From Olsenella uli (GTDB lineage Bacteria; Actinomycetota; Coriobacteriia; Coriobacteriales; Atopobiaceae), in assembly GCF_016900775.1 (NCBI RefSeq), contig NZ_JACJKN010000005.1, positions 62,001 through 126,000 on the forward strand: a stretch of DNA of 64,000 bases, written 5' to 3'. The position numbers were made by a program, and so were the translations under genes. The notes beneath the pieces are model-generated. The model was not told the origin of the DNA. It worked only from the letters and a program-made list of their open reading frames with translations, and did no database searches. Position 1 is the stretch's first letter; each line of letters begins with the position of its first letter. Positions 16,258 to 32,087 of this stretch are shown piece after piece.

Positions 16258-18120
16258 TCAGCCCTTCTCGCCGTCCACGTAGTAGCTGGCCTGGGCGTTC
16301 CACAGGCTCGCATAGAGACCGCCGGCTGCAAGAAGGTCCTCGTGGGAGCCCGCTTCCGCGATCCGCCCGCCGTCGAAGACGACGATTCGGTCGCAGAAGC
16401 GGCAGCTGCTCATGCGGTGCGAGATGTAGACGGCCGTGCGGCCCTCGACCATGCGGTCGAACCCCTCGTAGACCTCGGCCTCGCTGATGGGGTCGAGCGC
16501 GGCCGTCGGCTCGTCCAGGATGACGAGCGGCGCGTCCTTGTAGAGCGCGCGGGCGAGCGCAAGCTTCTGCGCCTCGCCGCCGGAGATCATCACGCCGTCG
16601 CCGAGGTCCTTGTAGAGGAGGGTGTCGAGCCCCTGCGGCAAGGCCCGCACCAGCTCGGCCGCCCCCGCCTGCGCAAGCGCCGCCCACATCCGCTCGTCGT
16701 CGCGCGCGTAGCCCGCCGCCAGGTTCTCCCACACCGGGAAGGCGAAGAGCCTGAAGTCCTGGAAGACCACGGCAAAGAGGTCGCGGTACTCGTCCTCGTC
16801 GTACTTGCGGATGTCCACGCCGTTCAGCGTGATCCGCCCCTCCGTGGGGTCGTAGAGGCGAACAAGCAGCTTGATGAAGGTGGTCTTGCCCGCGCCGTTG
16901 GGCCCCACCACGGCCAGCCTGTGCAGGGTGTCCAGCTTGAGGCTCACGTCGCGCAGCGCCCAGGAGCTCGTGCCCGGGTAGCGGAAGCTCACGTGCTCGA
17001 AGGCAAGCTCGAAGAGCCCGTCGTCGCGCTTCTCCACCGGGATGGTCCCGTGCGGGCGCGGGTCCTCCATGTCCATGAGGTCGAGAAAGACGCCCAGGTA
17101 TCCGCAGCACTCCCGCAGGCGGGCGCTCTTCTCGCAGAGCGTCGCGTAGGCCCCTCCGAACTGCGCGAGCGCGCCCGCGTAGGTGGTGAACGACCCCACG
17201 GTGATGGCCCCGGCCAGCACCTTCACCGCGACGATCGCGTATGAGGCCACCACGAAGACCGCGCTCAGCGCGCCCGTCCCCACGTCGAGGCGACGCGTGG
17301 AGGTGAACCAGCGGTCGTAGAAGCCGATCGAGGCGCGGGTGTTCTCCTCGAGGTTGCGCATGAGCATGCCGCGCATGTCGTAGATGCGCGCGACCTTGGG
17401 CACGCGCCGGTCCTCAAGCACCAGGCCGAGCAGGTACGTGAGGCGGTTCTCGACCGAGGCGTAGTCTTTCGTGAAGCCCCGCATGACGCGCCCGCGCAGC
17501 CGCCCCAGCGCGCCGTTGCCCGCGACCGCCCACCCGAGCGCGGCCAAGAGGAGCAGCGCGGAGACCGCCGGCGAGGCCGCTGCCGAGAGCGACGCGCCGG
17601 CGCGGCCCGGGGCCAGACAGAGCGCCACCACCAGGCCCACGCACGCGAGCATGTTGAGCAGCGCGCACAGGGCGTCGCGGTAGAACCCGGCCACCGCCCC
17701 GAGGTTGCCCTGCATGGACGCCGTGCGCTCCACGTAGGCGATACGCTCGGAGATCTTGGGGTCCTCCATCGTCTCGTAGCTCAGGCTCATGGCCTTCTCG
17801 CGCAGCATCACGGTGAACTCGCGCATGACGCGCATGGAGCCCACGGTGGCGCGCCGCTCGCACCGGGCGCGCACGCACGAGGCGAGAAACGCGCAGGCCA
17901 CGATGCATGCCGCCATGACCGCGCTCACGCGCGCGCTTCCTGCCGCGAGTGCGTCGACGAGGCGGGCCGTGAGGATGAGGGAGGCGTAGAGGGCCCCCAC
18001 CCGCACCGTCGCGTCCACGAGCATGACGGGGATGAGCGCGCGGTCGATCCGGTGCACCACGCCGAGCAGGCGAAGGCCCGTGCGATGGAACGCCAGGGGC
18101 TCGCGGATCCTATCGAGCAT
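16258..18120 (-). CDS. ABC exporter, fused permease/ATPase (pair 2, second gene)
   Basis: This 620-residue half-transporter has an N-terminal six-helix exporter domain (about residues 20-330) and a C-terminal ATPase. Walker A is VGPNGAGKTT (about 405), Q-loop VFQDFRLF, signature ISGGEAQKL (about 513), Walker B LVILDEPTAALD with catalytic Glu (about 537) and switch His in YISHRMSS. ATG 18120 overlaps the end of the preceding ABC gene by 11 bp, so the two are translationally coupled and likely form a heterodimer in the membrane. It is a close paralogue of the gene at 20115 (both begin MLDR, then REPLAFHRTGLRLL). Substrate unknown; exporters of this shape move peptides, drugs or lipids. Confidence 0.9.
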   Translation of the reverse strand: MLDRIREPLAFHRTGLRLLGVVHRIDRALIPVMLVDATVRVGALYASLILTARLVDALAAGSARVSAVMAACIVACAFLASCVRARCERRATVGSMRVMREFTVMLREKAMSLSYETMEDPKISERIAYVERTASMQGNLGAVAGFYRDALCALLNMLACVGLVVALCLAPGRAGASLSAAASPAVSALLLLAALGWAVAGNGALGRLRGRVMRGFTKDYASVENRLTYLLGLVLEDRRVPKVARIYDMRGMLMRNLEENTRASIGFYDRWFTSTRRLDVGTGALSAVFVVASYAIVAVKVLAGAITVGSFTTYAGALAQFGGAYATLCEKSARLRECCGYLGVFLDLMDMEDPRPHGTIPVEKRDDGLFELAFEHVSFRYPGTSSWALRDVSLKLDTLHRLAVVGPNGAGKTTFIKLLVRLYDPTEGRITLNGVDIRKYDEDEYRDLFAVVFQDFRLFAFPVWENLAAGYARDDERMWAALAQAGAAELVRALPQGLDTLLYKDLGDGVMISGGEAQKLALARALYKDAPLVILDEPTAALDPISEAEVYEGFDRMVEGRTAVYISHRMSSCRFCDRIVVFDGGRIAEAGSHEDLLAAGGLYASLWNAQASYYVDGEKG

Positions 18121-20002
18121 CGCGCTCGCCTCCCTTCTCGCCGTGCGCCGCGTCCTTCTCGCCAAGCGCCGCGCCCAACTCGCCGTCCTCGTAGTAGCGG
18201 GCCTGGGTCTCGAACATGCGGGCGTAGGCGCCGCCCGCGGCCATGAGCTCGTCGTGCGTGCCCTCCTCCACCACGCGCCCTCCCTCCATGAACACCACGC
18301 GCTCGCAGAAGCGCGTGGACGAGAGGCGGTGTGAGATGAAGACGCTCGTCTTGCCGTGGGTGAGCTCGTCGTAGCGCTCGTACATCTGGCGCTCGGCGAG
18401 CGGGTCCAGGGCGGCGGTCGGCTCGTCGAGAAGGACCACCGGCGCGTCCTTGTAGAGCGCGCGGGCGAGCATGAGCCGCTGGGTCTCGCCGCCGGAGAGG
18501 CTCACCCCCTCGGGGTCCACGTCCTGCCCGAGGCGGGTGTCCGCGCCGTGGGGCAGGCCGTCGACCTTCTCGGCCAGGTCGGCGCGCTCGAGGCTCTCCG
18601 CGAGGCGCCCCTCGTCCACGGAGGCGGGGTCGTCCGCGCAGGTCACGTTGTCCGCAACGGAAAACGAGAACGGGAAGCAGTCCTGGAAGACGACCGAGAG
18701 CTCCCGCCAGAGCGCGCGCCGCTCGATCGCCGAGACGTCCTGACCGTCCAGGTAGACCGCACCCGAGCTCGGCCGGTACAGTCCGCACGCGAGCTTCACG
18801 AGCGTGGTCTTGCCCGCGCCGTTGACGCCCACCAGCGCGACCTTCTCGCCCGCGCGGATGGTGAGGGTCAGGTCGTGTACGGCGTCGGTCCTCCCGTCGT
18901 AGGAGAAGCAGACGTGGTCGAAGCGGATCTCGTGCGCGTGGCCGGGGCGGGCGACGCCCTCGCCGCCGCGGCTCGGCTCGCAGTCCGCGTGGAAGTCGCG
19001 GTAGGCCCCCACGTGGCGGGCGTTCTGCGTGAGCGACGTCAGGCCCTCGAACGCCGCCTGCATCCAGGTGCCAAAGCCGCTCACCATGCCCACCATGAGC
19101 AGGAACGCCGGGAGGTCGAGCGCGCCCGAGAGGAGCCGCGCGATGAGCAGCGCGTAGGCCGCGGCGTCGCGCGCGAGGGCGAGCGCGACCGCGAGGTAGC
19201 CCGAGCGCTCGAAGGCGCGGTACTCCACGTCGCGCAGGGCGAGGTCGCGCTCGATCACGTCGGCGAAGGCGCGGGAGAACCACGCGGCCATGCGATAGAG
19301 GCGGATGTCCTTGCCGTTCTCGGGCGAGATGGTCTGCCGGCGCAGGTAGGAGAACTCCTCGCTCGTCTGGAACTCGGGGCCCATGACCTCGAAGCTCCTG
19401 TTGGAGGCCCAGGCGTTGCCCGCGACGGCGCCTGCCGTGAGCAGCGTGATGAGGGCGAGAAGCCCGGGCGCCCCCGAGCCGATGACCGCCCCGTAGGCCA
19501 CCATGCCGGCCGCGCCCGTGACGAGGCCGCGCAGGCTGAGCAGCACCTGGCCGACGCCTATGCTCATGTCCTGGAAGAAGGCCATATCGGCGGCCTGCAT
19601 CTTCTTGTTCGCCTCGTCGCTCTCTATGAAACGGTAGTCGGCGGCGAGGGCGTCGCGGCACATGTCGAGCCCGCCCCAGATGCGCGCGAGCGAGTCGTTC
19701 CAGGAGGCGCGGCGGTCGGCCCAGGTCCTGAGCACGCCGAGCGCCTGGATGAGGGCCGCGGAGACGGCCACGAGCGCAAGCGACGCGAGCGGGTCCCAGC
19801 CGGACGTGAGCGCGGCCACAACGACGCTCGGCAGGGCGGCCGCCAGGAACGGCTGCGCCACCCCGAGCGCCACGTCGAGCACAAAGACCCCCACGGCGCG
19901 GGCGCCGGCGTGGCGCCTCATCAGGCGCAGGGCGAAGAGGGCGTTGCTCGCCGCGGACCAGCGCCGCGTCGGCTCCACCGCGTTGACGTCAGTCATCTGC
20001 AC
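18110..20002 (-). CDS. ABC exporter, fused permease/ATPase (pair 2, first gene)
   Basis: A 630-residue half-transporter: transmembrane domain first, then ATPase with Walker A VGVNGAGKTT (about 394), VFQDCFPF, signature LSGGETQRL (about 504), Walker B VVLLDEPTAALD (about 525) and FISHRLSS. Both ATP sites of the expected heterodimer look canonical. The start is uncertain: GTG 20002 and ATG 19996 share a weak GAGGGG site. The C-terminal tail is charged and contains repeats of GEKD/GEKGG. It is paralogous to the gene at 21970. Lies about 110 bp after pair 1 on the same strand, so one four-gene transcript is possible. Confidence 0.9.
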   Translation of the reverse strand: MQMTDVNAVEPTRRWSAASNALFALRLMRRHAGARAVGVFVLDVALGVAQPFLAAALPSVVVAALTSGWDPLASLALVAVSAALIQALGVLRTWADRRASWNDSLARIWGGLDMCRDALAADYRFIESDEANKKMQAADMAFFQDMSIGVGQVLLSLRGLVTGAAGMVAYGAVIGSGAPGLLALITLLTAGAVAGNAWASNRSFEVMGPEFQTSEEFSYLRRQTISPENGKDIRLYRMAAWFSRAFADVIERDLALRDVEYRAFERSGYLAVALALARDAAAYALLIARLLSGALDLPAFLLMVGMVSGFGTWMQAAFEGLTSLTQNARHVGAYRDFHADCEPSRGGEGVARPGHAHEIRFDHVCFSYDGRTDAVHDLTLTIRAGEKVALVGVNGAGKTTLVKLACGLYRPSSGAVYLDGQDVSAIERRALWRELSVVFQDCFPFSFSVADNVTCADDPASVDEGRLAESLERADLAEKVDGLPHGADTRLGQDVDPEGVSLSGGETQRLMLARALYKDAPVVLLDEPTAALDPLAERQMYERYDELTHGKTSVFISHRLSSTRFCERVVFMEGGRVVEEGTHDELMAAGGAYARMFETQARYYEDGELGAALGEKDAAHGEKGGERDAR

Positions 20003-20114
20003 AACGAATCAAATCCCCTCTGTACGATCGCCACGCTAGCCCGAGCCGGGCGCACGGAACCCGCCGCCAAAGCGTGCGCGCAGCTCGGGACGGGCGAGAA
20101 GAACCGGCGGGCCG

Positions 20115-21980
20115 TCAGCCCTTCTCGCCGCCCACGTAGTAGCTGGCCTGGGCGTTCCACAGGCTCGCGTAGAGGCCGCCCGCGGCGAGAAGCCCCTCGT
20201 GGCCGCCGCGCTCCACCACGCGCCCGCCGTCGAAGACGATGATGTCGTCGCAGAAGCGGCAGCTGCTCATGCGGTGCGAGATGTAGATCGCGGTCTTGCC
20301 GGCAACCATCCGGTCGAACCCGGCGTAGACCTCGGCCTCGCTGATGGGGTCGAGCGCGGCGGTTGGCTCGTCCAGGATCACGAGCGGCGCGTCCTTGTAG
20401 AGCGCGCGGGCGAGCGCGAGCTTCTGAGCCTGGCCGCCGGAAGGCGCGATGCCCGGGCCCAGGTCGTTGTAGAGGCGGGTCTCGAGCCCCTCCGGCCATG
20501 CGCGCACGAAGCCGGCGTCGACCCGCTCGAGCGCCTCCCAGAGCCGCACGTCGTCGCGCGGGTAGCCCGCCGCCAGGTTCTCCCACACCGGGAAGGCGAA
20601 GAGCCTGAAGTCCTGGAAGACTACCGCCATGAGGTCGCGGTACTCGTCCTCATCGTACTTCTCGATGTCGATGCCGTTGAGCGTGATGCGCCCGAACGTG
20701 GGTCGATACAGGCGGCACAGCAGCTTGATGAAGGTGCTCTTGCCCGCGCCATTGGGGCCCACCACGGCCATCTTGCGCCTCATGCCCAGCTTGAGCGTGA
20801 CGTCATGCAGAATCTCCTCGGAGCTGCCGGGATACGAGAAGCTCACGTGCTCGAAGGCGAGCTCGTACTCGCCGTCGTCGCGCTTCTCGGGCGGGATGGA
20901 GCCGCGCTCGCTTGCCTCGGGCATGTCGAGAATGGCCAGGAACTCCTCGAGGTAGCTGCAGTGCTCGCGCAGGTCGTTGTTGCGGCTCACGAGGTTGGAC
21001 CAGGCGGTCCCCAGTTGCGCGAGGGCGCCCGCGTACTGCGTGAACGCGCCGATGGAGATGGCGCCGGCGAGCACCTTCACGGCGACGATCAGGTAGGACG
21101 CCACGATGAAGGCGCCGTTGATGCCCGTGGACGCCACAGCCACGCGGCGGTTGCCCGCGCGCCAGCGGTCGTAGAAGCCCACGCTCGCGCGGTTGGTCTG
21201 GTCGAAGGCACCCATGAGCATGTCGCGCATGCCGAAGACGCGCTCCACCTTGCCGTCGGCGCGCTCGCCCGCGACGAGGTCCATGAAGTAGACCATCCGG
21301 CGCTCCCACGCCCCATCCTGCGCCGAGAAGCGCTCGGTGATGCGGCGGCTGAGCGCGGAGACGGCGGCCTGGCCGCGCACGAGCAGCGCCACCGCGCAGG
21401 CGAGAAGGACCGCGGATGCCGCCGGGCTCGCCAGCGCTGCGAGCACGCCCTCTCCGCCCGCGGCCGGGGCGGCCGCGACGAGGCCCACCATGAGCGCGAG
21501 GCAGGCCACGAGCGACAGCGCGCTCTCGAGCAGGGCGCGGTAAGCGGCCGGGATCATGGAGAGGCCGCCCTTGATGCGCACCGTCTGGTCGAGCGCGGCG
21601 ACGCGGCCCTGGAAGGCGGGGCTCGAGAGGGTCTCGTAGTCCAGGCGCAGCGCCTTCTTGCGCGTGAGCAGCTGGAAGGCCAGCCAGCTCACCCAGGCGC
21701 CGTCGTTGCGGTGGTACTCGCAGACGCGCTCCACCACGCCGGCCGCGGCCGACACCGCCACGATGGCCGCCGCCGACGCCACGCTCGCGCGCCAGTCGAG
21801 CGCGATGAGCGAGTTCACGAGAAGCGCCGTGAGGAAGAGGTTGGCGTAGATCGCCGCCACGCGGGTCACGGCGTCAACCACGAGCGCGGGCACGAGCGCC
21901 CGGTCGAGCCCGTGCAGGATCTTGAGCAGGCGAAGCCCCGTCCGGTGGAACGCCAGGGGCTCGCGGGTCCTATCGAGCAT
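20115..21980 (-). CDS. ABC exporter, fused permease/ATPase (pair 1, second gene)
   Basis: A 621-residue half-transporter starting MLDRTREPLAFHRTGL. The ATPase has Walker A VGPNGAGKST (about 410), VFQDFRLF, a signature with Pro in place of the first Leu/Ile (PSGGQAQKL, about 514), Walker B LVILDEPTAALD and YISHRMSS. ATG 21980 overlaps the previous ABC gene by 11 bp, exactly as in pair 2. Its C-terminus (SLWNAQASYYVGGEKG) is almost the same as that of the gene at 16258 (YYVDGEKG), so the pairs arose by duplication. Partner: the gene at 21970. Confidence 0.9.
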   Translation of the reverse strand: MLDRTREPLAFHRTGLRLLKILHGLDRALVPALVVDAVTRVAAIYANLFLTALLVNSLIALDWRASVASAAAIVAVSAAAGVVERVCEYHRNDGAWVSWLAFQLLTRKKALRLDYETLSSPAFQGRVAALDQTVRIKGGLSMIPAAYRALLESALSLVACLALMVGLVAAAPAAGGEGVLAALASPAASAVLLACAVALLVRGQAAVSALSRRITERFSAQDGAWERRMVYFMDLVAGERADGKVERVFGMRDMLMGAFDQTNRASVGFYDRWRAGNRRVAVASTGINGAFIVASYLIVAVKVLAGAISIGAFTQYAGALAQLGTAWSNLVSRNNDLREHCSYLEEFLAILDMPEASERGSIPPEKRDDGEYELAFEHVSFSYPGSSEEILHDVTLKLGMRRKMAVVGPNGAGKSTFIKLLCRLYRPTFGRITLNGIDIEKYDEDEYRDLMAVVFQDFRLFAFPVWENLAAGYPRDDVRLWEALERVDAGFVRAWPEGLETRLYNDLGPGIAPSGGQAQKLALARALYKDAPLVILDEPTAALDPISEAEVYAGFDRMVAGKTAIYISHRMSSCRFCDDIIVFDGGRVVERGGHEGLLAAGGLYASLWNAQASYYVGGEKG

Positions 21981-23826
21981 CGCCGTCTCCCTCCCCGGCG
22001 TGCAAAAGTGCCTGTCCCTTTTGAACGCCGTCCTCGTAGTAGCGGGCCTGGGTCTCGAACATGCGGGCGTAGGCGCCGCCCGCGGCCATGAGCTCGTCGT
22101 GGGTGCCGTCCTCGGCGAGCCGTCCGCCCTCCAGGTACAGCACGCGCCCGCAGAAGCGCGTGGACGCGAGGCGGTGCGAGATGAAGACGCTCGTGCAGCC
22201 CTCGGTGAGCTCGTCGTAGCGCTCGTACATGCGCGCCTCGGCGATGGGGTCGAGCGCGGCAGTGGGCTCGTCCAGAATCACGACCGGGGCGCCCTTGTAG
22301 AGCGCGCGGGCCAGCATGAGGCGCTGGGTCTCGCCGCCGGAGAGCGTCACGCCCTCGTCGTCAATGTCCTGGCCCAGGTAGGTGGCCAGGCCCTGCGGCA
22401 GCGAGCGCGCCTTGTCGAGCAGGTCGGCCTGCGAGAGCGCCGCCACCAGGCGCCCGTCGTCGCCACCCGCGGCGTCCCAGGCGCAGGCCACGTTGTCGGC
22501 CAGCGGTATCGACAAGACCGCGGGGTCCTGGAACACCACGGCGAGCTCGGCGAACAGGGCTCGCCGGTCGAGCTCGCGCACGTCCACGCCGTCGATCGTG
22601 ACTCGCCCGGAGGTGGGTTCGATCAGGCCGCACGCAAGCTTCACGAGCGTGGTCTTGCCCGCACCGTTAGGCCCCACGAGCGCGACCTTCTCGCCCGCGC
22701 GGATCGTGAGGGTGAGGTCGGAGAGCGCGCTCCTCTCGCCGTCGTAGGAGAAGCTCACGTGGTCGAAGGCGATCTCGTGGGCGCGCCCCGCCGTGGGCAG
22801 CGCGGCCACGGGACGCGGCCTCGGCTCGCAGGCGCGCTGGAAGGCGCGGAACCCGCCCACCTGCGCGCTCTTCTGCACCAGCAGGGCGAGCGCGCCGAAG
22901 AGCCCTCCCATCCAGGTGCCAAAGCCGGCGACCATCCCCACGAGCAGAAGGAAGGCGGGCAGGTCGATCGCGCCCGAGAAGAGCTGGGCCACGAGCACCG
23001 CGTAGGCCACGGCGTCGCGCACGAGCGAGGAGGCCACGGACACGAGGCCCGCCACCTCCTGGTCGCGCCACTCCCCGCCCCAGGCGGCACGCACGCGCGC
23101 GGCCGCGGCGTCAAGCTCGGCGGACATGATGCCGCGCATGCGGTAGATCTTCACGTCCTTGGCGCTTCTCGGCGAGAGGGCCTCGCCGATGAGGTGGTCG
23201 TACTGCTCCAGCGAGCGCATCTCCGCCTCCTGGCGCGCCGGGGCGCGGCGCTGCAGGACCACCGTGGCCGCCACGGCCGGCACCGACACCGCCACGAGGA
23301 AGGCAAGGAGCGCCGGGCGGCCCCAGCCGATGACGCATGCGTAGACCACCACGCCGCCGAGGTTGGTGGCCAGGTCAAAGAGCGCGGTGAGCGTCGCCTG
23401 CGAGCCGCTGTCCGGGCCGTTGAAGAAGCAGGCCTGCGCCACGCCCTTGCCCTGCCTGGCGTCCTCGGTCTGCAGGTAGTCGTAGTCCGCGGCGAGAAGC
23501 GCGTCGAGGTAGGCGCTGTAGAGCGCAGATCGGGTGTTGCTGCACGCGCCTGAGCGCTGGTTGGCCGTCCACGCCTGAAGGACGCGTGCGAGCTGATAGG
23601 CCGCCACGTAGGCGGCGAGAAGCCCGAGCGCGGCCGGCGCGGGCATGCCGCTCGCCAGGACGCCCACCACGAAGCTCGGCAGCGCCGCCCCCAGGAAGGG
23701 CAGCGCCACGCCGAGCGCGACGTCGGCCGCACACGCCGCCACCGCGCCCCAGCCAAGGCCGCGGCGCATGGCGCGCAGCACGTAGGCGACGTTTGACGCC
23801 GTAGAGAAGCTCTTGCTCATGTGCAC
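21970..23826 (-). CDS. ABC exporter, fused permease/ATPase (pair 1, first gene)
   Basis: A 618-residue half-transporter and the likely first gene of the exporter cluster. The membrane domain precedes an ATPase with Walker A VGPNGAGKTT (about 388), VFQDPAVL, signature LSGGETQRL (about 496), Walker B VVILDEPTAALD and FISHRLAS. GTG 23826 has AAGGA at 5 bp; ATG 23820 is the alternative. Its C-terminal tail is odd: the paralogue ends in a GEKD-rich tail, while here a family-B palindromic repeat has been inserted and is translated as VQKGQALLHAG. The insertion keeps the frame and the 11-bp overlap with the next gene. Confidence 0.9.
   Translation of the reverse strand: MHMSKSFSTASNVAYVLRAMRRGLGWGAVAACAADVALGVALPFLGAALPSFVVGVLASGMPAPAALGLLAAYVAAYQLARVLQAWTANQRSGACSNTRSALYSAYLDALLAADYDYLQTEDARQGKGVAQACFFNGPDSGSQATLTALFDLATNLGGVVVYACVIGWGRPALLAFLVAVSVPAVAATVVLQRRAPARQEAEMRSLEQYDHLIGEALSPRSAKDVKIYRMRGIMSAELDAAAARVRAAWGGEWRDQEVAGLVSVASSLVRDAVAYAVLVAQLFSGAIDLPAFLLLVGMVAGFGTWMGGLFGALALLVQKSAQVGGFRAFQRACEPRPRPVAALPTAGRAHEIAFDHVSFSYDGERSALSDLTLTIRAGEKVALVGPNGAGKTTLVKLACGLIEPTSGRVTIDGVDVRELDRRALFAELAVVFQDPAVLSIPLADNVACAWDAAGGDDGRLVAALSQADLLDKARSLPQGLATYLGQDIDDEGVTLSGGETQRLMLARALYKGAPVVILDEPTAALDPIAEARMYERYDELTEGCTSVFISHRLASTRFCGRVLYLEGGRLAEDGTHDELMAAGGAYARMFETQARYYEDGVQKGQALLHAGEGDGDAR
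22000..22026. repeat. Family-B repeat inside the coding end of an ABC gene
   Basis: Copy with arms GTGCAAAAG and CTTTTGAAC around TGCCTGTCC (one mismatch in the arms). Unlike the other copies it lies within a reading frame, about 30 bp before the stop of the gene at 21970. Confidence 0.85.
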
Positions 23827-24054
23827 TCACATCCTTTCGTCCGAGAATGTGATACCGCGCCGCGGGCGGCCGCGGGGAGCATCCGCACGAGTTGCGCGAT
23901 TTTTCGCGCGAGTTGTCACGGGCGGCTGGGCGGGGAGCTTCGAGTTTTCGTCGCGCCCGACGCGGCAGCGCACCGCCCCGGACGCAGAGCTCGTGCCAGA
24001 CAGCTGCGCTATACTGCCGCCAGCCCGGCGAGGGCCGAAGGCGAGGAGGTCGGA

Positions 24055-24699
24055 ATGGACGTGCCACACTGGCCGTACTGGCGGCAGAACGCTCAGGGTG
24101 GGGTGCAGATCTGGTACACGGACATGCCCGAGCGCCCCTTCGTCGCGCCCGACGCGGACGAGCGCGTGGAGCGCGCCACCACCGAGATGAGGGACCTCGC
24201 CAAGAGGCTCGCCCCGCGCGGCGAGAAGCCCCTCGCTCTTCTCGAAATAGCCCCTGACCTGCGGCTTGTTCAACTTACGCGCATCCCGGAGCAGGCGCTC
24301 TCCTGGTACCAGGACCCCGAGACGCTCTGGATGGTCGACGGCAGGCGCGACCCGTACACGCCAGAGCGCCTCGCGCAGATGTACTCGTGGCTCTCCGAGC
24401 ACGGCGAGCTGTGGTTCATCGAGGTCATGGCTCGCGAAGGCTGGCGCGTCGTCGGCGACGTCACGCTCTGCCCCGACGACCTCCCCATCGTCATCGGCGA
24501 GAAGGGCCTGCGAGGGCGCCACATAGGCCGCCGCGTGATCGCCGCCCTGTGCAAGCGCGCCCGCGAGCTGGGGCGCGACGAGGTCCGCGTCGCAGAGATC
24601 TACGACTGGAACGAGGCCTCCCAGCGCTGCTTCGCCGCCGCGGGCTTCTCGCCCTACGAGCGCACCGAGCACGGGGCCCGCTGGCGCCGCGCGCTGTAA
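24055..24699 (+). CDS. GNAT family N-acetyltransferase
   Basis: This 214-residue protein ends in a GNAT acetyltransferase domain: VGDVTLCPDDLPIVIGEKGL (strands 4-5), then the acetyl-CoA loop GLRGRHIGRRVIAALCKRA (Q/RxxGxG/A-like RGRHIGRR) and the late WNEASQRCFAAAGFSPYERT segment in which Asn and the following helix position the cofactor. The first 80 residues are extra and unfamiliar. ATG 24055 follows GAGGAGG. A TATACT -10-like hexamer lies at 24010-24015. Substrate unknown. A 128-bp hairpin repeat follows it. Confidence 0.85.
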   Translation: MDVPHWPYWRQNAQGGVQIWYTDMPERPFVAPDADERVERATTEMRDLAKRLAPRGEKPLALLEIAPDLRLVQLTRIPEQALSWYQDPETLWMVDGRRDPYTPERLAQMYSWLSEHGELWFIEVMAREGWRVVGDVTLCPDDLPIVIGEKGLRGRHIGRRVIAALCKRARELGRDEVRVAEIYDWNEASQRCFAAAGFSPYERTEHGARWRRAL

Positions 24700-24749
24700 A
24701 GGAGCCGGCGGCTGCCCTGCGCCGCGCCCCGCACTCGATGCCCGCACCT

Positions 24750-24877
24750 GAGAAGTGCGGTCCTTACGCACCCCTCGCGCCCTCACTTCTCGCCAAAGCA
24801 CGAGCGGGCGCCCGCACTCCCGGCCCCGCACGCCCGCAATCGCCCGCACTCGATGCCCGCACTCGCGAGTGCGGGCC
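24750..24877. repeat. 128-bp duplicated hairpin element, copy 1
   Basis: This 128-bp block recurs at 26965-27092 with only two mismatches. It contains a hairpin from GAGAAGTGCGG facing CACTTCTC, several CCCGCACT units and a perfect 20-bp palindrome at its right end (CCCGCACTCGCGAGTGCGGG). It follows a GNAT gene and precedes the leader of the MFS gene. It has no coding capacity that I can support. Confidence 0.9.
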
Positions 24878-24948
24878 GACAAAGCCCTTCTCGCCCAGCC
24901 GACGTGCTACAATCCCCCCAGCAACCGGCTGATGCAAAGGAGGCCGCA

Positions 24949-24978
24949 ATGAGGCAGACGAACGAGGAGACCCGCTAG
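24949..24978 (+). CDS. Leader peptide MRQTNEETR before the MFS transporter
   Basis: ATG 24949 follows an excellent AAAGGAGG site and opens a 9-residue frame (MRQTNEETR) ending at TAG 24976-24978. A TACAAT -10-like hexamer lies at 24908-24913. The stop is only 4 bp before the 5' arm of an intrinsic terminator, and the repeat GAGACCCG occurs once within the last codons and once in the terminator arm. This layout is that of ribosome-controlled attenuation of drug-resistance genes, where a stalled ribosome changes the RNA fold. I infer that it controls the MFS gene downstream. Confidence 0.65.
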   Translation: MRQTNEETR

Positions 24979-24982
24979 GGAG

Positions 24983-25030
24983 ACCCGTTTTCCGAGGTAG
25001 CGCCGCCGCCCGCATGACGGACGGGTTTTT
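24983..25030 (+). terminator. Intrinsic terminator (attenuator) in the MFS leader
   Basis: ACCCGT (24983-24988) pairs with ACGGGT (25021-25026) and TCCG with CGGA nearer the loop, followed by a run of five Ts. It stands between the leader peptide and the MFS gene, so it must be bypassed for expression. The second GAGACCCG copy forms its 5' arm; the first copy, in the leader ORF, could compete for the same 3' arm. Confidence 0.7.
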
Positions 25031-25134
25031 GTCGTGCGCCTCGAAGCTGCCGCATCACGCCCGTGCAGACGCCGAACGCCTCTCCCCCGCGAGTCCACGC
25101 AGACCCGCACGCCTCTAGGGAAAGGCACCCTCTC

Positions 25135-26337
25135 TTGCATGTCGACATCCGCCGCCAGACGCGGCTCTACTACGCCTACGTGGCGCTCTCCAACCTGTCC
25201 ATGATCTCCGTGGTCATGAATCTCTACCTCGCCCACCTGGGCTTCTCGCTCTACCAGATCGGCATCCTGCTGGGTATCCTGCAGGTGGCAAACACCGTCC
25301 TCGAGATCCCGACCGGCTTTGTGGCCGACCGCTTCGGCAACCGGGCGAGCCTGATCTTTGCCCTCGCGCTGCAGATGGCGGCCTACGCGCTCATACCGCT
25401 TGCGGGGGCGCTGCCCGCCATGGCGGCCGTGATGGTGCTGCTCGCGCTCGCCAACACGCTCACCACGGGGTGCGCCTCGGCCATCGTCACCAACGCGCTT
25501 CTCGCCGAGGGGCGCTCCGACCAGCTCACCGACCTCTCCGCACGCTCCGGCGTCATCTTCTACCTCTGCTACGGCGTGGCCGCGCTGGCCTCGGGCTGGC
25601 TCAGCGAGCAGAGCTACGAGCTCGTGATCGCCCTCAGCGTGGGCTGCCTCGCGGGGGCGCTCACGGCCGTGGCGCTCATGCGAGAAGTGCGGGCCGGGGG
25701 CGAGAAGGACGGCGGAGACCGACCGATTCGCGTCCGCGAGGCCGCGCGCTACGTGGTCTCCAACCGGCCGGCGCTCTACTATGCGCTCGTGGAGGGCGCC
25801 GTGGCGTGGTCGATGGTCCCGGTGGACGACTTCTACAACAACTACCTGCACGACTTCCTGGGCATCCCGCTACCGCTCGTGGGCGTGGTCGTGGCCGCGC
25901 AGTTTGTGGCGGCGAGCCTCGCCGGGCTTGCGAGCTCGCGGCTTGCGCGCCATGTGCCCGAGGGGCTCGTCGCGCGCGTGGGGCCGGCGGTGACGGTGGC
26001 GGTCTTCCTGTGCTTTGCGCTCGCCCCGGACCCGCGCGCGGCCATCGCGCTCTACCTGCTAGGACTTGCGACGTTTCGGCTCACCAACCCGGTGCGCTCC
26101 AAGCTGCTGAGCCTCGGGGTCGACGCGCGTTTCCGCGTGACCGTGGCCTCGTTCAGCTCCATCGCGATCTCGCTTCTGTCCGCGGTCTCGCAGCCGATCT
26201 TCGGCTGGCTATCGGGGGCGCTCGGCATGCGCGCCGCGATGGTGGTCCTCATGGCGATCACGCTGGCTCTTCTCGCCGCGATCAACCTCGCGTTTCCGGA
26301 CGCGACGTCCGCGGACGCGGTCGAAGGGGGCAACTGA
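25135..26337 (+). CDS. MFS transporter (probable drug efflux)
   Basis: This is a major facilitator protein of about 400 residues with 11-12 predicted membrane helices. Helices 1-2 surround LAHLGFSLYQIGILLGI and the loop 2-3 signature is GFVADRFGNRASL (GxxxDRxGRR-like), typical of the family. The frame is open from 25063; I prefer TTG 25135 because it follows AGGGAAAGG and gives a short N-terminus before helix 1 (HVDIRRQTRLYYAYVALS). The first 24 residues of the longer form look non-coding. The leader peptide and attenuator upstream suggest induction by a ribosome-targeting compound, which fits drug export; this is inference. Driven by proton gradient in the family. Confidence 0.85.
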   Translation: MHVDIRRQTRLYYAYVALSNLSMISVVMNLYLAHLGFSLYQIGILLGILQVANTVLEIPTGFVADRFGNRASLIFALALQMAAYALIPLAGALPAMAAVMVLLALANTLTTGCASAIVTNALLAEGRSDQLTDLSARSGVIFYLCYGVAALASGWLSEQSYELVIALSVGCLAGALTAVALMREVRAGGEKDGGDRPIRVREAARYVVSNRPALYYALVEGAVAWSMVPVDDFYNNYLHDFLGIPLPLVGVVVAAQFVAASLAGLASSRLARHVPEGLVARVGPAVTVAVFLCFALAPDPRAAIALYLLGLATFRLTNPVRSKLLSLGVDARFRVTVASFSSIAISLLSAVSQPIFGWLSGALGMRAAMVVLMAITLALLAAINLAFPDATSADAVEGGN

Positions 26338-26410
26338 CATGCGCGCTGATCCGCAGCACATCAGTTGGGACCAGACCTCAACATACATACCGCAAGAGAA
26401 GGGCGTGAAC

Positions 26411-26908
26411 ATGCTTCAGATACGAGAAATGCGGGGGCACGATATTCCCGAGAAGGCCGTCGTCCATGCGCAGACGTGGCGGGAAACCTATGCGGGAATG
26501 CTCCCCGACGAGCTTAACGCGCACATTACGCCGCAGTTCGCCGAGCGCCTCGCACATGAGCAGGCCGATTGGCTCACGACGCTCGTGGCGCTCTGGGACG
26601 GCCACATAGTAGGATACGCAAGCTTCTCCGCGGCACGCGAGCAGCTTGGGCGGGCCGACGCGACAGAGCTCTGCAACCTCTATGTGCTTCGCTCGCATCA
26701 GGGGCTCGGCGTAGGCTGGGCACTTGTCGATGCAGTCCGGGAGCGCATTGGCGAGAGCGACCTCGTGCTCACCGTGTTTGCAAGAAACGAGCAAGCGCAG
26801 GGGTTCTACCAGCACGTTGGTTTCAGGCTGACGGGACGGATGTTCCACGATGACGAGGCGGGCGACGAGCTCGAGATGCTGCTCGCTCAGTCGCCCGCGC
26901 GACCCTAG
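26411..26908 (+). CDS. GNAT family N-acetyltransferase
   Basis: A 165-residue single-domain GNAT enzyme: IREMRGHDIPEKAVVHAQTW start, central ATELCNLYVLRSHQGLGVGW with the acetyl-CoA loop (HQGLGVGWAL) and the late RNEQAQGFYQHVGFRLTGRM segment. The AxxWxETYxG(M) segment near residue 25 is seen in many stand-alone GNAT enzymes. ATG 26411 follows GAAGGG at 7 bp. Codon use looks more AT-rich than its neighbours, hinting at acquisition. It follows the MFS gene by about 70 bp and could be co-transcribed, which would pair efflux with acetylation. Substrate unknown. Confidence 0.88.
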   Translation: MLQIREMRGHDIPEKAVVHAQTWRETYAGMLPDELNAHITPQFAERLAHEQADWLTTLVALWDGHIVGYASFSAAREQLGRADATELCNLYVLRSHQGLGVGWALVDAVRERIGESDLVLTVFARNEQAQGFYQHVGFRLTGRMFHDDEAGDELEMLLAQSPARP

Positions 26909-26964
26909 GCGAGCCGACGCGCGCGGGCGAGTCCAATCTCGGGACGCACTTGAGGCAGGCGCTC

Positions 26965-27092
26965 GAGAAGTGCGGTCCTTACACACCCCTCGCGCCCGCA
27001 CTTCTCGCCAAAGCACGAGCGGGCGCCCGCACTCCCGGCCCCGCACGCCCGCAATCGCCCGCACTCGATGCCCGCACTCGCGAGTGCGGGCC
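26965..27092. repeat. 128-bp duplicated hairpin element, copy 2
   Basis: Almost identical to 24750-24877 (two mismatches), in the same orientation and again directly after a GNAT gene. The 20-bp palindrome lies 19 bp before the stop of the convergent GNAT gene at 27111, so it may also act as a bidirectional terminator. Confidence 0.9.
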
Positions 27093-27110
27093 AGCGGGCG
27101 CCGCGGCGGC

Positions 27111-27542
27111 CTACCCAGCGGGCACAAGGCGCACGTAGGCCACGCACCCCAGGCGCTCGGCGCGCGTGAAGCCGAGCGACTCGTAGAACGCACAGGTCCC
27201 GGGGCCATCATCGGCGAGAAGCTCCGTCTGGTAGACGCCGCCGAAGCGCTCGAGCACCGCGCGCACGAGGGCCCCTCCGATGCCGCGGCGGTGAAGCTCG
27301 GGCGCCACGACCACGTCCTGGAGAAAGACGATCGAGGCCCCGTCGCCCACGACGCGCGCGAACCCCACGAGCCTCTCGCCCGCAAAGGCGCCCCACACCG
27401 CAAGCGAGCCGGCAAGCGCGGCGCGGACCATCTCCGGGCGGCTCGTGTAGTTGACCCAGCCGACGGCCTGGTAGAGGTCGAGGATCTCGGCGATGCGCGC
27501 CTCGCGCTCGGCGGTCCCGAGCTCGCGAACCTCATACGTCAT
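27111..27542 (-). CDS. GNAT family N-acetyltransferase
   Basis: A 143-residue acetyltransferase with the DLYQAVGWVNYTSRPE start common to this subgroup, strand 4 IVFLQDVVVAPELHRRGIGG with the acetyl-CoA loop HRRGIGGAL, and the late CAFYESLGFTRAE segment. ATG 27542 follows GGAGGGGG. The subgroup is often called aminoglycoside- or GCN5-related but no substrate can be read from the sequence. It is convergent with the GNAT at 26411 and divergent from the flavodoxin-like gene at 27601, sharing a 58-bp promoter region. Confidence 0.9.
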   Translation of the reverse strand: MTYEVRELGTAEREARIAEILDLYQAVGWVNYTSRPEMVRAALAGSLAVWGAFAGERLVGFARVVGDGASIVFLQDVVVAPELHRRGIGGALVRAVLERFGGVYQTELLADDGPGTCAFYESLGFTRAERLGCVAYVRLVPAG

Positions 27543-27600
27543 GACAGCCCCCTCCGCGACGCGGCACTACAATGGCAGCATAGCGGAGAAGGGAGTTGCC

Positions 27601-28161
27601 ATGTGGCACGCTGACAGCCGCCCCCTGCCGGAGGACCGGCACGTGTGCGTCATCTACCTCTCGCGCGCGGGCAAGGCGCTCGACGACGAGGGTCACCTCA
27701 TGGAGGCGGAGCCCTCCCCCGCCTCGGAGGCCGCCGAAGCGCTCGAGCGGCTGCTCTGCGAGCGGCTCTTCTCGCATCGCGCTGACGCACCGCACGGGCA
27801 GAGCCTCGTTATGGTCAACGAGGTGGTCGAGAAGGGCGGCGCACTCGTCATCCAGCCCCACCTGCCGAGCATCCTCGAGCGCTACGAGACCATCGTCGTC
27901 TGCGCGCCCGTCCGGGACGGGCATCTCGCCCAGCCGGTCGAGGCGGCGCTCGCGCAGCGCGGCCCCCACGACTTCACCGGCCACGCCGTCCGGCCCGTCT
28001 GCACGCTCGCGGACAGCATGGGAACGGCTGCGGACATGGCACGCGACCTGCGGCGCGTTTGCCCGGGAGCCACCGTGGGCGAGCCGCTGGCCCTTCTCGG
28101 CGAGAAGGGCGCGGACTTCGAGCCCCAGCTCGCGGCGCACCTCGACGACTGGCTCCGCTGA
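27601..28161 (+). CDS. Flavodoxin-like protein with unusual phosphate loop
   Basis: This 186-residue protein has a flavodoxin-type layout: a first strand CVIYLSRAGK, helices between, ETIVVCAPVRDGHLAQPVEA in the middle (strand 4 region, where flavodoxins read pIWwgt.p.pv..F) and the late VCTLADSMGTAADMARDLRR helix. The FMN-phosphate loop normally reads (S/T)xTGNT; here it is SRAGKALDDEG, so FMN binding may be lost or changed. ATG 27601 follows GAGAAGGGAG. Cytosolic. Assigned by fold pattern, so the family call is moderate. No operon partner is evident. Confidence 0.6.
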   Translation: MWHADSRPLPEDRHVCVIYLSRAGKALDDEGHLMEAEPSPASEAAEALERLLCERLFSHRADAPHGQSLVMVNEVVEKGGALVIQPHLPSILERYETIVVCAPVRDGHLAQPVEAALAQRGPHDFTGHAVRPVCTLADSMGTAADMARDLRRVCPGATVGEPLALLGEKGADFEPQLAAHLDDWLR

Positions 28162-28190
28162 CGCCGTCGCTCGCCGCGCGCCGTCGTACC

Positions 28191-28217
28191 GTGCAAAAGT
28201 GCCTGTCCCTTTTGCAC
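28191..28217. repeat. Family-B palindrome at the stop of an ABC exporter
   Basis: GTGCAAAAG and CTTTTGCAC flank TGCCTGTCC; perfect 9-bp arms. It ends 1 bp before the TAG of the ABC gene at 28219. Confidence 0.88.
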
Positions 28218-28218
28218 G

Positions 28219-29934
28219 CTAGTTGCTCACCGTGAAGAGGGAGTAGAAGTAGCCGCGGGCCGCCATGAGCTCGTCGAAGGTCCCGCGCTCCACCACGCGC
28301 CCATCGCGCAGGGCAACGACCTCGTCGTAGCGCTCGAGCAGCGGCGCCTCCAGACGGTGCGTCACCACCACGCGCGTGAGCCCCTCGAGCCCCAAGATCT
28401 CCTCGCCCACCGCGCGAGCCGTCTGGTTGTCGAGCGCCGCCGTGGCCTCGTCAACCAGCAGCACCGGCGTGCGCCGCAGGAGAGCCCGCGCGATCGAGAC
28501 GCGCTGCCGCTCGCCGCCGGAGAGCGCGGAGCCGTTCTCGCCGCAGCGGAAGCCCTCGCCCTTCTCGGCCACCAGAGCCGCCAGGCCGGCGCGGCGCACG
28601 GCGTCGTCCACCGCCTCGTCGGGGAAGTCGCGAAACATCGTCACGTTGGCGCGGATCGTGTCGTCGAAGAGGAAGACGCTCTGGTCGATGAGGCTCACCA
28701 GGTCGTAGAGGCTGCCGGCCTCCACGTCGCGCAGCTCGTGGCCGTCCAGCGTAATAGAGCCCTCGTAGCCGTCGTAGCCGCCCATGAGGAGGTTGAGCAG
28801 CGTGGACTTGCCGGAACCGGAGGCGCCCACCACCGCGTAGCTGCGCCCGGCCGCAAGCTCAAGCGAGACGTCGCGCAGCACCGGCGCGCCCGGCTCGTAG
28901 CCAAAGCTCACGCCCGAGACCTCGATGCCGCGCTCGAGCCGCGAATCGATCCTCTCGCCGGCGCGCTCCGCGTTCTCGCGCGTGGCCGCGGCGAGCTTCT
29001 CCACCAGGCCCGCGGCGGCCCGTCGGCTCGCCCAGTACTGCGGCACGATGCTAATCGGCTGCATGAGGTAGTTGCACAGGTTCACAAAGATGAGCACCGT
29101 GCCGGCCGTGATCTGCCCGTCGATGGCGAGCCACGCCCCAATGAAGAACACGCCAAACTGAAGCAGCACCGAGCACAGGTCGCCGGAAACCGCGGTGATC
29201 AGGCAGTCCCACCAGTAGCGGGCGCGCTTTGCCTCCTCGGCCGCCCCGCTCGCCGCGTCGAAGAGGCCGCGCGCCTGCGCCTCGGCCTTGAAGCTCTTGA
29301 TGACGGAGAAGCCGGCCAAGAGGTCGCGCAGCTCGGAGACGAAGGCCTCGTTGCGGTCGGACACGGCGCGCTCGCGGACGGCGAGCTCGCGGCCCATGAG
29401 CACGGAGGCCGCAAGCGGCAGCAGCGAGAGCGCCACAGCGGCCAGCGTCAGCGGCACGCTGTAGAAGAGCATCATCGCGAGCGTGCCCACGAAGAGCAGC
29501 GCGTGATAGACGAGCAGGAACGACCGCTTGAGGTAGCCCTCCTCGACTGAGGCCACGTCGTTGGTGAGCAGGCTGAGGTAGCTGCCCGTGTTCTCGCGCG
29601 AGAAGGCGCGGATGCTCTTCTCGGAGAGGCGCCTGAACGCCAGCGACTTGTAGCTCACCAGCGCCCGGAACACGAAGTCCGACTTGGCGCGGTACATCCC
29701 CACGCTAATCGCAAACGACGCCACCATGAAGACGGCGCAGAGGGCGAGAAGAGCCTGGAGCCGCCCGAGGTCGCCGGCGGCGATGACGTCGATGATCTCC
29801 CCGAGCAGCCAGGAGCCGATGAGGGCCGACGGGATGTCGAGCACCGTGAGCGCGAGCGCCGCCGCGAAGCGGGCACGGTTGTGGTCGAAGAAGGCACGGA
29901 AGTACTCCCGCGCGGCAGGCGTGATGGATGTCAT
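28219..29934 (-). CDS. ABC exporter, fused permease/ATPase
   Basis: A 571-residue half-transporter, not closely similar to the four at 16-24 kb. Six membrane helices occupy residues 20-300; the ATPase has Walker A GASGSGKST (about 373), signature ALSGGERQRVSIARAL (about 471), Walker B VLLVDEATAALD (about 497) and VVTHRLEA. Alone in its unit, it likely works as a homodimer. ATG 29934 follows GGGGAGAG. No peptidase or substrate-binding domain is present. It is next to a LytTR-type two-component system on the same strand, an arrangement used for peptide or bacteriocin export and immunity; a functional link is plausible but no peptide gene is visible. Confidence 0.9.
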   Translation of the reverse strand: MTSITPAAREYFRAFFDHNRARFAAALALTVLDIPSALIGSWLLGEIIDVIAAGDLGRLQALLALCAVFMVASFAISVGMYRAKSDFVFRALVSYKSLAFRRLSEKSIRAFSRENTGSYLSLLTNDVASVEEGYLKRSFLLVYHALLFVGTLAMMLFYSVPLTLAAVALSLLPLAASVLMGRELAVRERAVSDRNEAFVSELRDLLAGFSVIKSFKAEAQARGLFDAASGAAEEAKRARYWWDCLITAVSGDLCSVLLQFGVFFIGAWLAIDGQITAGTVLIFVNLCNYLMQPISIVPQYWASRRAAAGLVEKLAAATRENAERAGERIDSRLERGIEVSGVSFGYEPGAPVLRDVSLELAAGRSYAVVGASGSGKSTLLNLLMGGYDGYEGSITLDGHELRDVEAGSLYDLVSLIDQSVFLFDDTIRANVTMFRDFPDEAVDDAVRRAGLAALVAEKGEGFRCGENGSALSGGERQRVSIARALLRRTPVLLVDEATAALDNQTARAVGEEILGLEGLTRVVVTHRLEAPLLERYDEVVALRDGRVVERGTFDELMAARGYFYSLFTVSN

Positions 29935-30080
29935 GTCTCTCCCCTGTTCAAACGAAACCAGTATGTCAGGAGAGACCTAGAGCATGACGACCTTTCGCCG
30001 GGAACAGGACGGCTCCATCATAGGGCGCGGGCGCCGCGCGGACCCACAGCTTTCGGCGAGCGGCGCCGGCCGACCGCGCC

Positions 30081-30107
30081 GTGCAAAAGTGACTGTCCCC
30101 TTTGCAC
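30081..30107. repeat. Family-B palindrome at the stop of the sensor kinase
   Basis: GTGCAAAAG, then TGACTGTCCCC, then CTTTGCAC. It ends 1 bp before the TAG of the kinase gene at 30109. Confidence 0.88.
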
Positions 30108-30108
30108 G

Positions 30109-31368
30109 CTACAGCGGCAGGCTGACCTCGGCGGCAAAGACGCCCGGCTCGTTGGCGAGGTTCAGGAAGCCCTCGTACTTCTCGACCACCGCGGCCACGC
30201 GCTTCATGCCCAGGCCGTGGTTGCCGCGCTTCTCGCTGATGTAGTTGCGCTGGTTGAAGCTCGGGTCCTCCACGGCGGAGTTCTGGATGGACGCGTAGAG
30301 CTGGCTGCCGCGCGCGGCCACGTAGACGCGCAGCCACCGGCCGTCCGCGGGCAGCGCCGCGCAGGCCTCGATCGCGTTGTCGAGCAGGTTGCCCAGGATC
30401 ACGCAGAGGTCCACGTCGTCCACCGTGAGCGCGTCGGGCACGCGCGCCTTGCATGTCACGGCCACGCCGTCGCGCTCGGCAAGGCTGAGCTTGGAGTTCA
30501 GGATGGCGTCCACCATGAGGTTGCCGGACTTGACGTAGGTGTCCACGCGGTCGAGGTCGGCCTCGAGCTCGTCGAGGTAGGCGGAGAGCTCCGCGAGCTG
30601 CCCGGCGGCGAGCTCGGCCTTCATGACCTGAAGGTGGTTGTGGTAGTCGTGGCGCCAGCCGCGCATGTCCAGGTAGATGGCGCGGATCTCGTCGTACTGG
30701 CGGGAGAGCACCTCCTGCTGGAAGCGCTCGGCCGAGCTCTCGAAGCCGCGGCGCAGGCGCGCGTAGCCCCCGGTGACGAGCGCGTAGGAGCCAAAGGCGG
30801 CGAGAAGCGCGAGCGCCGCGGAGGCGGGCGGCCCCGCGACCGTGAGCGTCCCGAGCGCGGCCATGACGCAGGCGAGAAGGGCCACGTCGCGGCGAGAGAG
30901 CGTGCCGCGGCGCCGCATGGCGAGCACGAACGCGAGCGCGAGCGGCGCCACTGTGAGCGCGGCAACGACCCGCCCGGGCGCGCGCCCCCCGAACGCGACG
31001 CACGCCAGGCCCACAAGGGCCGCCTCGGCGAGCCCGGGCGCCACGGCGGCGCGCCAGGTCAGCGCGAGCGGTTCCTCGTCGAAGAACGCGTCGAGAAGGA
31101 CGAGGGCGAACGTGACCGCGAGCCATGCAGCGGCGACGCCCCAGGGCGCCCCGGCGCGCGCCGCGCCCGAGAGGGCCCCGGTGAGCGCCCAGGTAGCCAG
31201 GTCCTCCCCGAGCCAGCCCGCGGCGAGCGCGAGCGCGCAGGTCCCGAGCGTCACCGCCCACGCGCCGCGGCTCGCGCGCAGCCGCCCGAGCGACGCGACG
31301 TGCAGGACGTAGGCGACGAGCCAGGCCGCCTGGGACCCCAGGGCCACCGCGAGCTCCGCCCCGCTCAT
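30109..31368 (-). CDS. Sensor histidine kinase, LytTR-system (AgrC/7TM) type
   Basis: This 419-residue kinase has an N-terminal block of several hydrophobic helices (about residues 1-215, Ala/Leu-rich), then a dimerisation region whose phosphoacceptor His is likely in MRGWRHDYHNHLQVMK and a C-terminal GHKL ATPase with N-box LGNLLDNAIEACAA and G-box NHGLGMKRV. Such kinases sense extracellular peptides or membrane signals and phosphorylate LytTR response regulators. ATG 31368 overlaps the regulator's stop codon (ATGA), so the pair is translationally coupled. Lying at the membrane next to an ABC exporter, it may sense what the exporter carries. Confidence 0.88.
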   Translation of the reverse strand: MSGAELAVALGSQAAWLVAYVLHVASLGRLRASRGAWAVTLGTCALALAAGWLGEDLATWALTGALSGAARAGAPWGVAAAWLAVTFALVLLDAFFDEEPLALTWRAAVAPGLAEAALVGLACVAFGGRAPGRVVAALTVAPLALAFVLAMRRRGTLSRRDVALLACVMAALGTLTVAGPPASAALALLAAFGSYALVTGGYARLRRGFESSAERFQQEVLSRQYDEIRAIYLDMRGWRHDYHNHLQVMKAELAAGQLAELSAYLDELEADLDRVDTYVKSGNLMVDAILNSKLSLAERDGVAVTCKARVPDALTVDDVDLCVILGNLLDNAIEACAALPADGRWLRVYVAARGSQLYASIQNSAVEDPSFNQRNYISEKRGNHGLGMKRVAAVVEKYEGFLNLANEPGVFAAEVSLPL

Positions 31369-32087
31369 CCGAGGGTCCCCCGGCACCACGCGAGCCACGC
31401 CTGGTTGAGCGGCTCCCAGCGCCCGCGCGCGATCGGCAGGCTCGCGCCGTCGTCCATCTCCACGTCGCGGCGGGTGATGCGCCGCACGTGCGCGAGGTTC
31501 ACCAGGCAGGAGCGGTGGCACTTCGTAAAGAGCGTCGACTCCTCAGCGAGCTCGGCCTCCACGCGCGCGAGCCCCTCCTTGCTGCGCAGGCACGTCCCGT
31601 CCGCCAGGTGCACGAGCGCGTCGTGGCCCGACCCCTCCACGTAGCAGACGCGCGAGACTACGACGCGGCTCGTCTCGCCCGCGGACTCCACCACGAGCAC
31701 GGGCTCGGCGCGCCCCAGGCGCTCCCGCGCGCGGTCGAGCGCCAAGAAGAGCCTGTCGGCGCGCGCCGGCTTGAGTAGGTAGGAGACCGCGTCCACGTCA
31801 TAGCCGTCGAAGACGTGGTCGATGATGCCGGTCACGAAGACGACCTGCGTGCGCTCGCCGCGCTCGCGCAGGAGCCGCGCGAGCTCCATGCCGCTCGCGC
31901 CGGGCATCTCTATGTCGAGCAGCGCCACGTCCGGGGCGCCGTCGTCGAGCGAGAAGAACAGCGCGTCGGCGGAGACGAACGTGTCCACGCGCGCCTCGAC
32001 GCCGCGCCCGCGCGCCCAGTCGCGCGCGAGGCCCGCGATGAGGTCCGCGGCGGCCCGCTCGTCGTCGCACACGGCAATCTGCAGCAC
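31365..32087 (-). CDS. LytTR family response regulator
   Basis: A 240-residue regulator with an N-terminal receiver domain (IAVCDDERAAADLIAGL; phosphoacceptor Asp in VALLDIEMPG; conserved Lys in YLLKPARADR) and a C-terminal LytTR DNA-binding domain (VVVSRVCYVEGSGHDALVHL, then FTKCHRSCLVNLAHVRRI). The LytTR domain binds pairs of direct repeats about two helical turns apart. GTG 32087 is chosen because it starts exactly at the receiver strand; AGGAGG lies 10 bp before. The frame extends upstream to 32183 without similarity. Two GCGTAAG repeats lie 80-110 bp upstream and may be its binding site. Confidence 0.92.
   Translation of the reverse strand: MLQIAVCDDERAAADLIAGLARDWARGRGVEARVDTFVSADALFFSLDDGAPDVALLDIEMPGASGMELARLLRERGERTQVVFVTGIIDHVFDGYDVDAVSYLLKPARADRLFLALDRARERLGRAEPVLVVESAGETSRVVVSRVCYVEGSGHDALVHLADGTCLRSKEGLARVEAELAEESTLFTKCHRSCLVNLAHVRRITRRDVEMDDGASLPIARGRWEPLNQAWLAWCRGTLG

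Follow-up and report, generated by a model that had tools for sequence, protein, structure and literature searches.

A short leader ORF upstream of an MFS transporter gene in one genus of Atopobiaceae is a candidate ribosome-controlled attenuator

Background

The mef(E)/mel operon of Streptococcus pneumoniae is preceded by an attenuator that codes for the leader peptide Mef(E)L, MTASMRLR, and the parts of the report available to us describe a 327-nt leader, the macrolide arrest motif MRLR and a separate dIR1/dIR2 anti-attenuator (PMC4335068). In Bacillus subtilis, according to PMC9226507, whether transcription terminates intrinsically ahead of the resistance gene vmlR depends on an upstream ORF (uORF) and on alternative hairpins, and loss of the uORF start or of its ribosome site nearly abolishes expression. 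A third leader, toiL-topAI of Escherichia coli, has a uORF that is proposed to report several translation stresses, and the accessible text of PMC12121999 describes action on the ribosome site of the gene and Rho termination within it.

The locus described here lies in the window, the whole 64,000-nt stretch of Olsenella uli DNA that was analysed. It shares with mef(E)/mel, as far as that report was available, a short leader ORF, alternative folds and an intrinsic terminator, both of which are predicted here, and an MFS gene, which is a candidate efflux gene here. It differs in that its peptide is another one, the leader is compact, the putative antiterminator lies inside the ORF and there is no known inducer. 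It shares with vmlR the uORF and the alternative hairpins, and with toiL a uORF that may report on translation, while toiL differs in the step at which it acts. The system is known in kind, its peptide and its host group are new within the scope of our search, and its logic is possibly new. In one open library of the literature MRQTNEET had no match, and none of the 12 titles listed, out of 242 matching ones, describes such a system. One paper there, on a collection of pig gut isolates, matches both Atopobiaceae and leader peptide in the part of it that was available.

Results and discussion

The leader ORF and the genes downstream of it

The initial annotation had claimed that an ORF for MRQTNEETR lies behind a strong ribosome site and that a terminator and an MFS gene follow it. 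The ORF (ATG AGG CAG ACG AAC GAG GAG ACC CGC TAG) and its ribosome site are present (Table 1), and 3' of the ORF come, in this order, GGGAGACCCGTTTTCC, a GC-rich stretch, ACGGGTTTTTG and the MFS gene. These elements are as described, but the terminator is less sure because a simple scan of positions 24600-25300 did not find a terminator-like site and shuffled sequences fold as well as the 92-nt terminator segment (z 0.15). On both strands of the window, a strong ribosome site followed by an ATG ORF of 4-20 codons and by TTTTT 15-80 nt past the stop occurs once, compared with a mean of 0.067 in 30 Markov-1 controls. The promoter candidate is a TGnTAnnnT box about 40 nt upstream of the leader ORF, and a consensus scan of positions 24600-25300 found no -35/-10 promoter pair. 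At curated scores Rfam gave nothing but tRNAs in the window, with two chance-level matches in the leader region, and a riboswitch was rejected because an Rfam match was absent.

Table 1. Features of the leader region and of the genes downstream of it, in window coordinates
Feature	Position	Strand	Remarks
Extended -10-like box TGCTACAAT, putative leader promoter	24905..24913	+	TGnTAnnnT in 10/10 copies; start site predicted
Ribosome site AAAGGAGG of leader ORF	24936..24943	+	read in window
Leader ORF MRQTNEETR*	24949..24978	+	ten copies, 9 genomes, frame intact
Hairpin P1, putative antiterminator (ORF second half, stop codon, terminator 5' arm)	24960..24990	+	RNAalifold and pair scoring
GAGACCCG repeat	24967..24974 and 24980..24987	+	once in ORF, once in 5' arm of putative terminator
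Putative terminator stem	24983..25026 (24983-24988 and 24992-24994 with 25018-25020 and 25021-25026)	+	predicted
T-run of putative terminator	25026..25030	+	window copy and G008b only
MFS transporter gene	25135..26337	+	probable TTG start behind GAAAGG; Pfam MFS_1
GNAT acetyltransferase gene, directly 3' of MFS gene	26339..26908	+	Pfam GNAT domains

The MFS and GNAT genes are probably in the same operon. The MFS relatives have a TTG or GTG start at the equivalent place, and at three loci (L053, L054 and L056; G and L numbers denote genomes and loci) another GNAT-like gene overlaps, by eye, the end of the MFS gene. When the transporter was compared with the known drug-efflux MFS families of NCBIfam no match was above cut-off, the best scores being 20-32 bits against cut-offs of 335-800. 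Its AlphaFold model, which is of middling confidence (mean pLDDT 69.8), matches MFS structures of many kinds, among them NorA, MdfA and LmrP and also sugar and organic-anion carriers, and points to no particular substrate.

Distribution of the leader

Samples of the genus (31 genomes), family (140), class (396) and phylum (396) were searched. Conservation before related MFS genes, which the initial annotation had named as a check, was found: ten copies are present in 9 of the 31 genus genomes (the genus appears to be Thermophilibacter, of the Atopobiaceae), and each lies 180-186 nt upstream of the start of a gene of one and the same MFS subfamily (10/10, by independent DNA and protein searches). 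Conversely, the leader precedes 10/10 MFS copies that have a readable 5' end, the fragment in G019 starting at a contig end. The leader DNA pattern, with two mismatches permitted, gave 21 matches, namely, the 10 leaders and 11 others that carry two mismatches each and are regarded as unrelated; eight of the 11 were inspected, L033 at the wrong offset, and L049-L051 share letters with L034. The 23-nt ORF core has no mismatch in seven copies and one in three.

Among the 396 class genomes the covariance model R1 gave nine strong matches (E up to 1e-13), spread over eight genomes, and then weak ones with E from 8e-4 to 0.1. Since R1 was built from the leader sequences, its scores for them are not independent support, and G023, although it carries the leader, is absent among the R1 matches listed. 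At seven weak loci that were inspected (L069-L072, L077, L087 and L090) there was no such leader ORF; the other weak matches include second ones in G017 and G018. In the phylum sample the pattern matched only the window and one TTG-starting site in G578, and none of the three wider samples yielded another convincing leader copy. MFS genes of at least 59% identity are confined to the genus among the 140 family genomes, other matches, the truncated gene of G013 apart, being at most 31% identical. The next MFS relatives (E about 1e-27 to 1e-30) belong to another family of the order, and the leader was present in none of their 10 readable upstream regions out of 11 printed, L094 being off target. 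Mobile spread was considered and rejected because no MFS homologue was found in plasmid and phage collections at E 1e-5 and no leader pattern in viral contigs. In T. provencensis (G008, locus L053) both types of leader and MFS gene are found head to head, the leaders being 1.8 kb apart.

Conservation inside the leader

The peptide is MRQTNEETR in the window and in G008b. In the other eight copies, referred to as the other clade, it is MRQTNEETLR (G001, G008a, G013 and G022), MRRTNEETLR (G012), MRQANEETLR (G018 and G023) or MRQTNEETLH (G017). Thus positions 3, 4, 9 and 10 vary, residue 4 being Thr in eight copies and Ala in two, and Thr8 is found in 10/10. In the alignment, the ribosome site, the ATG and the frame are retained in 10/10 copies, with a single indel of three bases; in the other-clade copies compared the ribosome site reads AAGGGGG, AAGGAGG or GAGGGGG. 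Base changes in the ORF are of three kinds, all of them missense and none synonymous, and in the sequences the ORF bases seem constrained at least as much as the peptide. An amino-acid starvation attenuator was rejected because the peptide has no single-residue run and its final Arg is His in G017. The arrest sequence MRLR/MRLK of macrolide-type leaders (Mef(E)L, ErmK and MsrA), a motif taken from the available part of PMC4335068, is in none of the five peptide variants.

It could be argued that there is no regulation at all: recent common descent or gene conversion would have kept a short stretch, and its hairpins would be there by chance, the DNA being GC-rich. The leader is indeed found in one genus only, and two copies are close together in G008. 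Against this, a 24-nt core is identical between the window and G001 although the flanks have diverged on both sides and the MFS genes of the two agree at 61% of third positions (57-62% when the window gene is compared with six other-clade MFS genes), and the ATG, the ribosome site and the frame have been retained throughout. We consider the absence of regulation to be quite improbable.

Hairpin P1 and the putative terminator

It had been claimed that GAGACCCG is found both in the leader ORF and in the 5' arm of the terminator, allowing two exclusive folds. The window sequence does carry it at both places, and by folding two exclusive structures are also predicted. As a conserved switch, however, GAGACCCG was rejected because 8/10 copies read GAGACCCTCC in the ORF, which leaves the second repeat copy unmatched. 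The modelling partly supports hairpin P1 instead as the conserved competitor of the terminator. RNAalifold gave P1 in both alignments as GAACG-GG...CCUCC paired with GGAGG...CC-CGUUC, the loop holding most of the stop codon; the window copy differs in its inner helix, which is CCC/GGG. This pairing is possible in all ten leader copies, and the cells scored are standard pairs in 105 of 105 cases, compared with 59-67% when the 3' arm is shifted by one column. Compensatory proof for P1 is absent because no pair changes on both sides. Its energies are ordinary when compared with shuffles (0.7-1.8 SD lower, z -0.7 to -1.8, in five copies folded), and variable columns, 3/24 of paired and 11/38 of unpaired positions, are not clearly fewer when paired. 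These weak statistics count in favour of a chance hairpin.

The putative terminator stem pairs ACCCGU+CCG with CGG+ACGGGU; it is interrupted by a UUU bulge and its loop has 23 nt. Its arms have A-U pairs in the window where most relatives have G-C (GACCCG/CGGGUU and GGCCCG/CGGGCC), a difference that we count in favour of the attenuator. A U-tract follows in two of the ten copies, the window and G008b, and in the window the T-run may pair into another hairpin with bases downstream. Four tRNA 3' flanks were compared: two have a GC hairpin and TTTT, one a GC hairpin and a broken T tail, and one a GC hairpin but no T tail. Since some tRNA hairpins here are without a clean T tail, T-poor termination may occur.

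Folding with a ribosome on the leader

The folded RNA began 32 or 20 nt 5' of the ATG and ran to the terminator end, and a ribosome footprint from 14 nt upstream of the P-site codon to 13 or 16 nt from it was kept unpaired, which gives four settings; the folds are at equilibrium and are not kinetic. In the window P1 and the terminator are mutually exclusive by folding. With an empty leader the probability of the terminator was 0.07-0.11 and that of P1 0.90-0.98, whereas that of the terminator was 0.90-1.00 when any of codons 1-7 occupied the P site. At codon 8 it was 0.11-0.98, depending on the footprint, and at codon 9 and the stop 0.00-0.06. For the window and G008b together over the four settings, the terminator values were 0.01-0.11 when empty, 0.88-1.00 on codons 1-7 and 0.00-0.06 at codon 9 or the stop. 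Thus the claim that a stalled ribosome relieves termination holds in these folds for a ribosome on the last codons or the stop, but not for a stall on codons 1-7, which favours termination. By a looser control measure, any hairpin abutting the T-run, the values for the window were 0.45 empty, 1.00 early and 0.37 at the stop, and those for G008b were sharper (0.07, 1.00 and 0.10). On this looser measure 16 of 300 dinucleotide shuffles switched at least as strongly as the window, which is a further point for chance folding without regulation.

A clear switch was found in 5/10 copies (the window, G008b, G001, G017 and G018), the codon 1-4 values of G001, G017 and G018 depending strongly on the assumed start. 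The switch is erratic in G023. There is none in G022, where terminator-like pairing was 0.78-0.89 without a ribosome and P1 only 0.15-0.34, nor in G008a, G012 and G013, where terminator-like pairing was nearly nil apart from one value of 0.79 in G012. Since the other eight copies are without the U-tract and the switch is uneven, what the copies have in common is the ORF together with P1, and only for the window type can intrinsic termination fairly be predicted.

These differences between copies bear on whether the leader acts at another step, which could be Rho-dependent termination, the stability of the mRNA or its translation; P1 would then be the hairpin that does the work and the T-run would be incidental. 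All ten copies share the ORF and P1 whereas few have the U-tract, terminator-like pairing is nearly lacking in three of them, and toiL, in the portions of PMC12121999 available, is a precedent for a Rho-linked uORF sensor. On the other hand, the MFS ribosome site is about 140 nt past the leader stop, no conserved fold hiding it was seen in the alignments, which end about 60 nt before the site, and the T-poor tRNA hairpins leave T-poor termination open to such leaders. In our judgement action at another step is rather unlikely.

Proposed mechanism

We propose that the leader is a cis-acting ribosome-controlled attenuator of the MFS(-GNAT) operon, a prediction from sequence and folding to which we give an even chance. 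Transcription would begin just upstream of the leader ORF. Ribosomes on roughly the first seven codons would hold P1 open, the freed ACCCGU arm would pair with ACGGGU, and transcription would stop at the T-run. If the leader is empty, P1 would form first and block the terminator, and RNA polymerase would reach the pump gene; a ribosome halted on the final codons or at the stop would cover the terminator arm and would likewise allow read-through into the pump gene. The elements, their conservation and their linkage to one MFS subfamily are seen directly, and the competition between P1 and the terminator is predicted from folding.

What such an attenuator would sense is a separate matter. Tentatively, it may be a compact sensor of failing translation. 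Its antiterminator would be part of the leader ORF itself, and the pump gene would be on when the leader is empty or a ribosome is halted at its end, and off during normal or early-stalled translation. If this is the case, loss of the leader start codon should make expression constitutively on through read-through, opposite to vmlR as described in the available part of PMC9226507. The layout is similar to that of mef(E) and vmlR, as far as those reports were available, but the predicted sign differs, since here an early stall should terminate and an absent ribosome or one at the end should read through. If the model holds, gut Coriobacteriia would regulate a candidate efflux operon according to the state of their own translation, by means of a leader that differs from those in the reports consulted. 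The system would be a small, testable one in which to see which translation states a leader reports, and knowing the inducer would give a clue to what the uncharacterised transporter carries.

The alternative closest to the initial annotation is a drug-specific arrest attenuator, in which a drug arrests the ribosome at one particular codon of the leader. Its likeliest form, which is a fair test and no more, would be stalling by a phenicol or an oxazolidinone, with Thr8 as penultimate residue, codon 9 in the P site and the terminator arm covered. The penultimate residue that these drugs prefer is Ala and, to a lesser degree, Ser or Thr, according to the part of PMC8987054 available. In agreement with this, Thr8 is invariant, residue 4 is Thr or Ala, a codon-9 ribosome abolishes the terminator pairing of the window in the folds, and mef(E) is a precedent, as far as the available part of PMC4335068 goes. 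Other observations do not fit so well: four peptide positions vary, the pump is without a recognisable drug-resistance family, and the bases that code for NEET are part of P1. Because those bases lie in P1, they may be constant for reasons other than the peptide. Drug-specific arrest is an unlikely explanation.

The neighbourhood of the module

A 148-nt direct repeat, 94% identical between its copies, brackets the module of leader, MFS and GNAT genes in the window (24730-24877 and 26945-27092), and there are no further full-length copies in the genome. In T. provencensis (L053) one 128-nt stretch that is 99% like the first repeat copy is found 3' of the GNAT gene. In the other clade, a REP-like palindrome of the AAAGGGGACAGTCCCTTTT type lies between the leader and the MFS start in 8/8 copies (L039 and L041-L047), at the same place and with letters that differ among the eight; it is absent from the window and G008b. 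The module is flanked, within 18110-31521, by ABC exporter-like genes (28219-29934 by Pfam and three at 18110-23826 by eye) and by a GHKL histidine-kinase-like gene. In G013 (L043) the leader is intact and the MFS gene is truncated, with 49% identity over residues 9-59; only about its first 60 residues are present, and the sequence that follows resembles, by eye, the histidine-kinase-like gene at 30109-31521 of the window.
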